Of a stretch of 35,598 bases of DNA, positions 9,466 to 17,827 are shown in pieces. A program made the translations under genes and the position numbers. Each line of letters starts with the position of its first letter. The stretch's first letter is position 1. Origin of the DNA: a virus; IMG/VR virus record IMGVR_UViG_3300042691_033953, positions 1 to 35,598 of that record; one strand, written 5' to 3'. A model generated the notes under the pieces. The model saw only the letters and a program-made list of their open reading frames with translations. It did no database searches and had not been told where the DNA came from.

Positions 9466-9987
9466 TTATCCATATTGATTTCTTAATCTACCTTTTTTCT
9501 TTGCGTCCTGCATATTTTCTTTTGCAGTTCCAACCCACAAATGATCTGGATTTATACACTTTGGATTATCGCAATGATGACACACATATAATCCAAAAGG
9601 TATTTCTCCCTTAAAAATGATATAACTTGCTCTGTGAGCATGCATTTTCTTGTTGTTTTCATATATTGTAGTATATGCATAACCATTTGGATGTATATCT
9701 CCTTTCCACTCCCAGCATCCATTTACCCTTTCAATATTATTTATCAACTTGCACTTAGTTGAGCAAAAATCCCTTTTTAGACCTTTTCCAACAAATTCTA
9801 AGGAACAATTCTTGCATATTCTATTATGTTTTTGTCTCCACAAGAATTTTCTTCTTTCTGCATATTTTTCTTTATTTTTCTGTCTCCATTCCTTTCTATA
9901 TTCTTTGTCGCATTCAATACAATATGCACATCCACTCCAAAACTGATCCTGTTCTTTTTCTTTTTTACATCTATGGCATTCTTTCAT
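9466..9987 (-). CDS. HNH homing-type endonuclease with zinc ribbons, 173 aa
   Basis: Two Cys-rich zinc sites lie in the N-terminal half: C-H-R-C (4-7) paired with C-A-Y-C-I-E-C, then C-K-N-C (58-61) paired with C-S-T-K-C. The C-terminal half carries the HNH core: H-A-H-R-A-S-Y, then V-C-H-H-C-D-N-P-K-C, then N-P-D-H-L-W-V-G-T and a K-E-N-M-Q-D-A tail. Such enzymes nick DNA and spread their own gene into related phages. It stands free between the adaptor and large tail genes, not in a recognisable intron, and can be regarded as an insertion splitting two genes that are otherwise adjacent. Confidence 0.88.
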   Translation of the reverse strand: MKECHRCKKEKEQDQFWSGCAYCIECDKEYRKEWRQKNKEKYAERRKFLWRQKHNRICKNCSLEFVGKGLKRDFCSTKCKLINNIERVNGCWEWKGDIHPNGYAYTTIYENNKKMHAHRASYIIFKGEIPFGLYVCHHCDNPKCINPDHLWVGTAKENMQDAKKKGRLRNQYG

Positions 9988-13075: not shown

Positions 13076-13739
13076 CTAGTTTAAAGTTGCTGTTACGTTT
13101 AGGCCACTAATCCAGTTTTGGTTAGTAATCGCTCTAGCGATTGCAAACTTAGCATACAACTGGCTGTTTTGTGCCACAGATGACACTACGTAAGGAGGGC
13201 GATAACCGAGAATAGCTGTATATCCGTTTTGTTCAATTTTAGCAGCAGCTTCTAAACCAAACATTGGAATAGTGTAAACTGTATTTCCTGCTAAAGAAGC
13301 TCCTGGAATCTTTGCTGCTTTAGAAGAAACAAAGAAGCGGAATCGGCTAATAGAGCAATATTCTTCTGGTCTCAATCCTTCTTGATGAGGATAGCTATTC
13401 TTGAGCACAACACCGTTTACGTTTTGTAGATCGGATGTGATGTCTGTGCTAGCAAGCGCAATAAAAGCATCACGAGTCGGGCTTGTACCAAACTTGTCCA
13501 TAGCTTCGTTTACAGCAAGCATTGTGCGAGCATCATTACCCAATAGGATACGTTCGATATTGTTGACGCTTGCTCGGTTGATGTTACTTGGCTGATCTCC
13601 GTTACCACCACCAACAGCATTGATGTAAGATACAGAAGAAGCGTAAAGATCGCGCATTAACAAGTCTTCTTTTTCACGTAACCATTGACCTAACAGAGCT
13701 GTAAACTTTGTAAGAACTTTATCGTTTTCGTAGAGCGTA
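13076..13739 (-). CDS. Major capsid protein, exon 2
   Basis: The 3' exon of a split gene. Joined to exon 1 it gives a 960-base, 319-aa frame. The start T (13739) is fixed by an intron-final G at 13740 and by pairing of the first five exon bases (UACGC) with GCGUA beside the internal guide (P10). Continuing from exon 1, the product reads I-N-E-Q-V-T-L-Y-E-N-D-K-V-L, then A-L-L-G-Q-W-L-R-E-K-E-D-L-L-M-R-D-L. This is the helical signature I associate with N4-gp56/P22-fold capsid proteins of podoviruses. Abundance, size and position after scaffold fit. An internal TTG start at 13663 is not needed. Confidence 0.85.
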
Positions 13740-13928
13740 CTACACTGTTACTTTCAGAGCTTTCGACTCGCTCTTACTGACCACATTGTTTAATCGTCTC
13801 GCAGGACGTTTTATTGTGGCGGAGGGTCTTGTTAATCCCCTCGCAATGGCTTTCACCATTGATCGGACTATCACTTCACCTTATGGTGTCATCGGGGTTA
13901 GTCTCTGCGGGTGCAATTTAATCATGTT

Positions 13929-13940
13929 TTCTGGTATACT
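13929..13940 (+). promoter_or_regulatory. Possible extended -10 promoter for the antisense endonuclease gene
   Basis: TATACT at 13935-13940, preceded by TG one base upstream (TGG-TATACT), forms an extended -10 element about 30 bases before the endonuclease ATG. No good -35 is seen. Some promoter on this strand is needed, because the capsid message cannot encode the endonuclease. A weak call. Confidence 0.4.
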
Positions 13941-13970
13941 GTTACGTAAACATTTACCAAAGGATTTTAT

Positions 13971-14477
13971 ATGGCTAAATATGGAAAAGAACAATATATT
14001 CGAAAGACATACGAACCGACCGTTTTGGCTTACTTGGCTGGAATTGTCGACGGTGAAGGAAGTATCAGCGCTGGTAGTTACTCTGCTAGTAGCATTGGAA
14101 CGAGACAACACACCACTTACCTTTCTGTGACTAATACAGACAAATCGCTTATTGATTGGCTTGTTTTTCATTTCGGATCTAAAGCTCACCCATTCACAAG
14201 TAAGCAACTTTCTAAAAACTCTAGAAAACCTGCTTGGAGATGGCAAGTTAGCGGAGATAGATTGTTGCACATTTGCGAAGAGATCCTTCCTTATATCGTT
14301 GCCAAAAAGAAACAAGTTGAAATTATGATTAAGCTTAGAGAAACCTACACAAAAAGAACTTATGAAGTGGGTCAAAGAGGTCCCAAGATTTCTCAAGAGA
14401 TTATTGATCTTCGCGATTCTTATGTTAGAGAACTTAGAGCTTGTCATATTCGAACTTCATCCATTAAACACTTTTAA
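13971..14477 (+). CDS. LAGLIDADG homing endonuclease, antisense inside the capsid intron, 168 aa
   Basis: Residues 21-30 (Y-L-A-G-I-V-D-G-E-G) are the LAGLIDADG motif with its acidic catalytic Asp. A single motif at this length implies a homodimer. The sequence then follows the family plan: S-I-S-A-G ... L-S-V-T-N-T-D ... L-I-D-W-L, a W-R-W-Q-V-S-G strand and a Lys-rich helix. AAAGGA about 7 bases before the ATG is a ribosome site. Family members cut the intronless allele so that the intron spreads. The odd point is orientation: the gene runs opposite to the intron and the capsid transcript, so it must be expressed from its own antisense RNA, which would also cover intron 5' parts and exon 1. 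Confidence 0.9.
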   Translation: MAKYGKEQYIRKTYEPTVLAYLAGIVDGEGSISAGSYSASSIGTRQHTTYLSVTNTDKSLIDWLVFHFGSKAHPFTSKQLSKNSRKPAWRWQVSGDRLLHICEEILPYIVAKKKQVEIMIKLRETYTKRTYEVGQRGPKISQEIIDLRDSYVRELRACHIRTSSIKHF

Positions 14478-14570
14478 AGCTTCCCTCTGGTTACCATGAG
14501 CTTTTTAGGCTTTTAGGCTTTCCAAGGTATTTACCGACGATTTATAGCAGGCTACGCAGCTAATAATTCA

Positions 14571-14866
14571 ACCTGCTCGTTAATTACAACAGTCTTAGCG
14601 TAAATCTCCATTGTAGCATCGATATCTGTACGAACTACAACTTCTGGAGCTGGATCAATACCAGAACCGTCTAATTGTCCTCCGTCAGTTGAAAGACGCT
14701 CATAACGAGACATACGAGTTGTTTTACCGATATAAGCATCAGCAAAATGAAGATCGCAACCAAAACTATGAATCAAATTGAACTGTGGTGTAGATAATAA
14801 GTCTTCAGAAAATTGCAAAGGCAATTCTGGAGCCATATTCTGGATATTTGTAATTCCAGTAGCCAT
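14571..14866 (-). CDS. Major capsid protein, exon 1
   Basis: The 5' exon: ATG at 14866 with a GAGGTG ribosome site, ending after two bases of a Val codon at 14571. Without splicing the frame would run six more codons into the intron and stop at 14552, making a 104-aa fragment. The encoded residues 1-98 include T-P-Q-F-N-L-I-H-S-F-G, T-T-R-M-S-R-Y-E-R-L and V-R-T-D-I-D-A-T-M-E-I-Y-A-K-T-V-V-I-N-E-Q. These match the N-terminal arm and early beta strands of N4-gp56/P22-type capsids as I recall them. The gene is downstream of scaffold and a tRNA. Confidence 0.85.
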
Positions 14867-16848: not shown

Positions 16849-17058
16849 CTAGTATTTCATCTTATGAGAACGAACGTAGTTTTTTAGTCCTTCATTTGCT
16901 CTATGATACTCTTCTGCTGCGTTCATCTCTGAACAGTATTTCATATCTACACCATCCATATTTGAGTAGCTTCTCTCAAATTGATGCTTAGGCATAGTAG
17001 GAGATTTCATCCCTGCTTCGCCTTTAGATCTTCCTTTTTCGATTTCATCCCTTTTCAT
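16849..17058 (-). CDS. Small basic protein, 69 aa
   Basis: Not recognised. Highly charged, with M-K-R-D-E-I-E-K-G-R-S-K-G at the start and a Lys/Tyr-rich C-terminus. Its ATG overlaps the TGA of the upstream HNH gene (ATGA), and a GGGGG ribosome site lies inside the HNH coding end. This implies that the ribosome site was there before the endonuclease gene was inserted. A small head-assembly or accessory protein is plausible. Confidence 0.5.
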   Translation of the reverse strand: MKRDEIEKGRSKGEAGMKSPTMPKHQFERSYSNMDGVDMKYCSEMNAAEEYHRANEGLKNYVRSHKMKY

Positions 17059-17786
17059 AATGCCCCCATGGTTTGCATCGTTGATGCAGTTTGTTGATTA
17101 TATTCCAATATTGTTTTTATCTGATTTATCCATTCTTTGTAAGACATTTCTCGCTTCATTAAGTTACATATGTTACAACACGAAACACAGTTATTAGTAA
17201 CATAGCCTATTTCATTATTCACTCTATCAATTCCGTTGTAGGCATAAAATCGATTTTTAATTTTTTTTGTGTTTTTCATTTTAAATTCATTGGATTTTGT
17301 TTTTCCGCAATAAACACACTCTTTTTCTATAATATCTTTCAACTCTTCTTTAGATAATTGAAAATCGATTCCTCTTTTTTTTGAAGCTTGCTTGTAATGG
17401 TTGTACACCCTATTTGGTCCTATCTCATTTGCTTCTTTTGATAGATAACATCCGCATGATTTACGTTGACCATTTAAAAGGTATGCTCCTCGTGTTATTT
17501 TTTCCTCTCCACACTCACACACACATTTGAAATTTGATAATGTATTGCACTTTTTCCCTAGTTTTTCTAAAACAATCAACATTCCAAATTTTTTTCCGAT
17601 TATAGAGTTTGAACATCCACAATCTGTAGGTTTCCATACTTTTCTTATGTAATAGCTATCTAAAACTTTTTCTTTTCCGCATTTACATCTACATACCCAA
17701 CTATGATACTTCCTTTTTCCATCAGGAGACCTACCTACTACAATCCAATCACCATATTTTTCACCTGTTAGGTCTAAAAGTTGCAT
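17055..17786 (-). CDS. HNH homing-type endonuclease with zinc-cluster modules, 243 aa
   Basis: The longer frame begins at 17819. The ATG at 17786 is preferred because AAGGTGG stands just before it and the product then starts M-Q-L-L-D-L-T-G, the usual opening of this endonuclease group. Residues about 30-125 carry two C-x-C-G...C-G-C zinc modules (C-R-C-K-C-G ... D-C-G-C; C-V-C-E-C-G ... S-C-G-C). The C-terminal half has E-K-E-C-V-Y-C-G and a long G-I-D-R-V-N-N segment then N-C-V-S-C-C-N-I-C-N, the HNH-like nuclease core with its Asn/Asp pair. It lies between portal and the 69-aa gene, a free-standing homing insertion. Confidence 0.85.
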   Translation of the reverse strand: MQLLDLTGEKYGDWIVVGRSPDGKRKYHSWVCRCKCGKEKVLDSYYIRKVWKPTDCGCSNSIIGKKFGMLIVLEKLGKKCNTLSNFKCVCECGEEKITRGAYLLNGQRKSCGCYLSKEANEIGPNRVYNHYKQASKKRGIDFQLSKEELKDIIEKECVYCGKTKSNEFKMKNTKKIKNRFYAYNGIDRVNNEIGYVTNNCVSCCNICNLMKREMSYKEWINQIKTILEYNQQTASTMQTMGAL

Positions 17787-17827
17787 ACATCCACCTTTTT
17801 TTATAGGTGATTTTAACATCTTTTAGA

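Follow-up and report, generated by a model that had tools for sequence, protein, structure and literature searches.

A phage capsid group I intron with an antisense LAGLIDADG endonuclease gene and two candidate ways of carrying transcription through it

The capsid gene is split by a group I intron

The window, by which we mean the whole 35.6-kb virus record analysed (35,598 nucleotides), contains a P22-like portal gene and, on the minus strand, a capsid gene interrupted by an intron. A homing endonuclease gene lies within the intron on the plus strand. The features of the locus are as follows.

13076-13739, minus strand: capsid gene exon 2, placed by its ORF, its relatives and the spliced frame
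13740-14570, minus strand: group I intron of 831 nt, starting UGAAUUAUUAGC and ending GUGUAG, with the omega G at 13740; missing from allele L003 and from most relatives
13866-13903, minus strand: P7 (GACUA 13903-13899 with UAGUC 13870-13866) and P8 hairpin CACC/GGUG, from sequence and P7 covariation
13881-14447, minus strand: stop-free sense ORF of 188 aa, codon-aligned opposite the endonuclease gene and ending in the P8 region
13932-13940, plus strand: extended -10-like TGGTATACT of a putative antisense promoter with a weak -35, from sequence and promoter-like hexamers in relatives
13959-13964, plus strand: putative ribosome-binding site of the endonuclease gene, AAAGGA, from sequence
13971-14477, plus strand: antisense LAGLIDADG homing endonuclease gene, 168 aa, predicted I-CreI-like fold, from motif, PHROG search and AlphaFold/Foldseek
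14546-14552, minus strand: internal guide sequence GCCUGCU, pairing with AGCAGGU (14577-14571) at the end of exon 1 to give P1, from sequence
14553-14557, minus strand: GCGUA, P10 partner of UACGC (13739-13735) at the start of exon 2, from sequence
14571-14866, minus strand: capsid gene exon 1, within the ORF at 14552-14866; its junction after GAGCAGGT is fixed by intron-less relatives and by the restored spliced ORF

Joining 14866-14571 to 13739-13076 gave a single capsid ORF of 319 aa. Of 80 capsid relatives that were read in viral contigs, 71 had no insert at this site, among them a near-identical allele, L003, and the intron-less site reads AACGAGCAAGT/AACTCTATACG. L003 and the window differed at nine of 861 compared bases, and four of the nine mismatches lay within 10 nt of the intron site. 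Co-conversion during homing is expected to leave mismatches clustered at the insertion site, and predicted cleavage of the intron-less allele by the endonuclease is consistent, if indirectly, with this mobility footprint.

The pairings of the predicted RNA are those of a group I intron: P1 has a U.G pair at the 5' splice site, P1 and P10 pair exactly, the intron ends in G, and the P7 pair covaries among relatives (A-U, U-A and G-C). Self-splicing is predicted. The P1 loop of the window is just 18 nt long and contains no boxA. At gathering score, Rfam detected no intron in the window, where the intron reached only 18.8 bits against Intron_gpI, probably because the ORF breaks it up. An intron at the same site in L016, which has no homing endonuclease gene (HEG), scored 75.6 bits; this compact relative and the intron-less relatives establish the intron despite its sub-gathering score.

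The intron encodes an antisense LAGLIDADG endonuclease

The original prediction placed a LAGLIDADG endonuclease on the strand opposite to its host intron, and both its identity and its orientation were confirmed: the ORF occupies exactly 13971-14477 on the plus strand, and the capsid gene and group I intron lie on the minus strand. The product matched phrog_5046 (E 1.8e-26, PHROG search), a family labelled 'HNH', yet its motif YLAGIVDGEG corresponds to LAGLIDADG, and AG..DGEG was invariant in 36 relatives. The match to Pfam LAGLIDADG_3 stayed below the cut-off (17 bits vs 22.5). An AlphaFold model built with the 36 relatives as input had a pLDDT of 87.8 and matched I-CreI and I-MsoI (Foldseek E 5.6e-8, probability 1.00, TM 0.68/0.76). 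Motif and predicted fold point to a single-motif LAGLIDADG homing endonuclease, which is under purifying selection.

An antisense promoter of its own, which the prediction required, is apparent at TGGTATACT: promoter-like hexamers 5' of the endonuclease gene scored better than shuffled sequence in 93% of relatives, and most relatives had a ribosome site. A better-scoring endonuclease on the sense strand would have spoken against the prediction, and none was found. The 188-aa sense ORF is no such candidate, since it had no Pfam match above cut-off and no PHROG match at E 0.01.

The antisense layout recurs in related phages

Loci were collected by two endonuclease-alignment searches, a capsid search and a DNA pattern. 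The same arrangement was looked for in related phages, as had been proposed, and the first endonuclease set contained 58 distinct loci that have it, each with capsid HMM pieces on the minus strand and an adjoining plus-strand endonuclease; none of the 58 had the sense orientation relative to capsid. One later locus, L277, carried the endonuclease and a capsid fragment on the same strand, with 11 opposite-strand stops. Searches of phage records returned only distant capsids and a freestanding LAGLIDADG gene of Streptomyces phage Faust, which lies on the same strand as its neighbours. At about 613-893 of L018, a group I intron contained what appears to be a decayed antisense-endonuclease remnant, and the adjoining capsid exon was arranged differently.

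Most introns avoid sense-strand stops opposite the endonuclease gene

Almost every copy had a long sense ORF in the phase that is codon-aligned with the endonuclease. In this phase a sense stop arises solely where the endonuclease uses TTA, CTA or TCA, and we compared the number of these codons with an expectation based on codon usage in neighbouring genes. Loci were divided by the presence of a conserved boxA-like element in the P1 loop (see below). In the 46 countable loci among the 52 without the element, 20 such codons were observed vs 385 expected, a roughly 19-fold avoidance; in six loci with the element, 37 were observed vs 35 expected. Other A-ending codons were at most mildly reduced, GTA, CCA and GCA being mildly so. 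Endonuclease relatives for which no capsid gene was found had mostly ordinary stop numbers. Stop avoidance in introns lacking the element, the main feature of these loci, was absent from the original prediction.

The open sense frame extended a mean of about 113 nt past the endonuclease start, vs 30 nt in the other frames. A sense ATG with a ribosome site was present in 83% of open loci, vs 13% and 4% in the other frames, and in none of the first six boxA-like loci. (The open set in the start-signal and tree analyses numbered 53, including the freestanding control L156, whose endonuclease sequence equals that of L155; the proper count is 52.) The sense AUG of the window, at 14447, had no clear ribosome site. 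The introns of L016 and L052, which have no HEG, showed no long sense ORF.

The phase of the sense ORF relative to the exon frames was random, and the idea that the ORF must join the capsid frame was rejected on this ground. In L114, L116, L213 and L226 the sense ORF ran without a stop through the 3' part of the intron into capsid exon 2.

A boxA-like element accompanies closed sense frames

Among the first 58 loci, a conserved GTTCTTTGAAATTTCTTG-like element occurred in the P1 loop of all six loci with a closed sense frame, and only in those. The element, GUUCUUUGAAAUUUCUUG, was found in relatives of the window and not in the window itself. Its 11-nt core, GTTCTTTGAAA, is one base off the gamma-proteobacterial boxA consensus GYTCTTTAANA (PMC5725501), with G for A at position 8; we therefore call it boxA-like. 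The exact 18-mer had 14 copies in 2.9 million viral contigs, and 13 of the 14 were in this capsid context, at the P1 loop. The DNA pattern alone brought in five new distinct loci with an endonuclease, each of them closed (8-15 stops). The association was perfect in the loci compared: the frame was closed in 11 of 11 boxA-like loci (4-15 stops) and open in 52 of 52 loci without the element (0-3 stops; Fisher about 1e-12). A later search added ten distinct loci; two with boxA-like variants were closed (10 and 13 stops) and eight without were open (0-3 stops).

On the endonuclease tree the boxA-like loci were polyphyletic. Five changes were needed, at least four of them on well-supported branches, and a constraint to monophyly was rejected (p 0.016). 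Independent contrasts on supported branches numbered only four; all four were concordant (sign test p 0.125), although a set of this size cannot give p below 0.05. The element could nevertheless mark one intron lineage, which would count against the explanation that we favour below, as does its retention in L176 though no endonuclease was detected there. Decay of the endonucleases at boxA-like loci was rejected as the cause of their stops, the codon-position pattern being the same in both groups. When genome contigs were scanned for the 18-mer, in search of host rRNA leaders, the matches were scattered and none had a 16S start sequence close by.

Transcription polarity as the likely cost of the intron

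We think it likely that these introns are protected from transcription termination, either by translation of a sense ORF whose content is immaterial or by boxA antitermination, and that Rho-dependent polarity is the force behind both. In the mechanism that we propose, a mobile group I intron carries an I-CreI-type endonuclease gene expressed from its own small antisense promoter and ribosome site. Because this gene is backwards, its translation would leave about 800 nt of the capsid transcript uncovered. Such bare intron RNA would invite Rho-dependent termination ahead of exon 2 and the downstream genes, a costly outcome since capsid genes need strong transcription. In most introns, including that of the window, the sense strand would be held free of stops in one frame, so that ribosomes cover the RNA. 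The frame used would be the one in which synonymous endonuclease codons permit openness, usually with an AUG and a ribosome site, and the amino acids would be irrelevant. In the remaining introns the boxA-like element of the P1 loop may recruit NusB/S10 for antitermination, leaving the sense frame free to gain stops. Common to both would be that transcription keeps going through RNA otherwise bare of ribosomes.

Precedent exists for the second route: boxA relieves polarity on long untranslated RNA, and the boxA upstream of a Legionella CRISPR array, GTTCTTTAAAA, does so in a synthetic array (PMC7862264). The HEG-less introns L052 (244 nt) and L016 (325 nt) had neither a long ORF nor a boxA-like element, as expected if short introns need no help. 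Two points from the literature count against the proposal. Nus factors were reported to be unnecessary against Rho at E. coli rRNA (PMC5725501), and the usual view is that translating an intron interferes with its splicing (PMC3073962). Of our own results, the lack of a clear ribosome site at the sense AUG of the window, the base by which the element departs from the boxA consensus, its absence from rRNA leaders in the one genome-collection scan and the small number of independent contrasts also weigh against it.

Other explanations of the open frame were weighed against this one. Codon bias can yield antisense ORFs, and the mild reduction of GTA, CCA and GCA would fit a by-product of endonuclease codon usage or protein family; the strong avoidance, however, is specific to the three stop-complement codons, is missing from the endonucleases of boxA introns and from most related ones away from capsid genes, and is accompanied by openness that continues into non-coding DNA upstream of the endonuclease start. 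The boxA-like controls already contradict such a by-product, which we regard as extremely improbable. A functional protein overlapping the endonuclease gene, such as a splicing helper or an antagonist of the endonuclease, would account for the length of the ORF and for the ribosome site and AUG that it has in most copies. Yet the fourfold sites of the endonuclease, which are the first codon positions of the sense frame, were near saturation: 50-70% of them differed between many relatives whose endonucleases are 80-90% identical. Codon-position substitution ratios were also alike in open loci (1.40:1:2.44) and in boxA-like loci that have no ORF (1.45:1:2.56). No constraint on the sense amino acids was detected, and they are not visibly under the purifying selection by which a functional overlapping gene would be recognised. 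Since the ORF is, in addition, missing from boxA-like and HEG-less introns and without a family match in the window, a functional sense protein appears decidedly unlikely.

The remaining alternatives concern the antisense RNA. About 500 nt of the antisense RNA are complementary to the sense RNA, and sense ribosomes might clear duplexes between endonuclease mRNA and capsid pre-mRNA, averting RNase III cleavage or intron misfolding; the protection would then be against antisense interference and not against Rho. This is unlikely, as it gives no account of why a boxA-like element in the P1 loop lifts the need for an open frame. The original prediction had proposed that, early in infection, the endonuclease RNA could reduce splicing or the expression of the capsid gene. 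Such a role agrees with the promoter-like sequences that the window and relatives carry on the antisense strand, but a transcript from near 13945 would reach exon 1 only if unterminated, no down-regulation is evident from the sequence or required by the data, and the features that persist look like means of keeping the sense transcript going. We consider this role very unlikely.

With slightly less confidence than in protection from termination itself, we suggest that the open frames are probably content-free genes and form a class of their own: with about 180-200 codons, a ribosome site and a start, they would be selected only for being translated, would let transcription pass a backward intronic gene and would be evolutionarily interchangeable with a boxA antiterminator. 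The relatives may be read as a natural experiment on why bacterial protein genes rarely keep introns; the cost that they suggest is transcription polarity, with two interchangeable remedies for it. If true, this would offer a direct test of how an untranslated intron survives under coupled transcription and translation and a way of predicting which antisense genes are tolerated. It would also caution that an ORF may be conserved and have a good start without encoding a useful protein.

Comparison with known systems

I-CreI, a group I mobile-intron endonuclease (PDB title 1bp7), resembles the window enzyme in predicted fold and in its single LAGLIDADG motif; the window enzyme is about 20% identical to it, lies in a phage capsid gene and is antisense. 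Introns of eukaryotic nuclear rDNA are known to carry antisense endonuclease genes (PMC9548176). According to excerpts of PMC9548176 and PMC3073962, Didymium I-DirII and I-DsqI, of nuclear rDNA group I introns, are likewise antisense with their own promoter; they differ in being His-Cys enzymes of eukaryotic rDNA, with no problem of coupled transcription and translation, and these excerpts report no sense-ORF/boxA pattern for them. Antisense endonuclease genes go unmentioned in a review of group I introns of bacteria (PMC3984707), and T4 segD is opposite to the capsid gene, yet freestanding (PMC2988022). We found no description of an antisense homing endonuclease gene in a bacterial or phage intron in the open-licence papers that made up the literature covered, and novelty is judged within that limit.

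The T4 td intron with I-TevI (PMC2988022, PMC3073962) is also a phage group I intron with an endonuclease promoter of its own and an ORF creeping into the P7 core; unlike the present case, it has a GIY-YIG enzyme in sense orientation, and its splicing is protected by keeping the intron from being translated. In relatives of the window, as in the boxA/NusB-S10 system of rRNA and CRISPR arrays (PMC5725501, PMC7862264), the core GTTCTTTGAAA lies where a long untranslated RNA begins, but here the element is boxA-like, one base off the gamma-proteobacterial consensus, and sits in a predicted self-splicing intron of a phage protein gene. The ShiLan element, an HNH gene hidden out of frame within a phage methylase (PMC11855218), shares an endonuclease ORF overlapped by a second stop-free frame; there the second frame is that of the host gene on the same strand, and no intron is involved.

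Further interruptions of the capsid gene

Frame-breaking insertions of about 28-56 nt were seen at FYG/FFG codons of the first capsid exon, some 35 nt before the intron site, in relatives and not in the window (L097, L098, L102, L109, L113, L114, L116, L117, L134, L141, L164, L166, L168, L169, L175 and L176; a second variant in L103, L108, L137, L138, L140, L142 and L144). In a first hairpin the exon pairs with the insert (TACGG..CCGTA); many copies have a second one, between the insert and the downstream exon. The hairpins showed compensatory changes between loci (for example GTTTATTTGT/ACAAATAAAC, GTTTAACGTT/AACGTTGAAC and GTTGATCTG/CAGATCAAC), and early in-frame stops were present. These insertions may be a translational bypass element like that of T4 gene 60, or a tiny intron.

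In L111, L127, L140, L143, L108 and others, the capsid gene was apparently split at further sites, near HMM positions 147, 183, 220 and 263, by inserts of about 67 nt to several hundred nt. L013 had a frame-breaking 44-nt insertion in the capsid gene, around 2650-2710, near the intron site and unlike the intron. In the window, two further HNH-type endonuclease genes lie among the structural genes, at 9466-9987 and 17055-17819, both on the minus strand.
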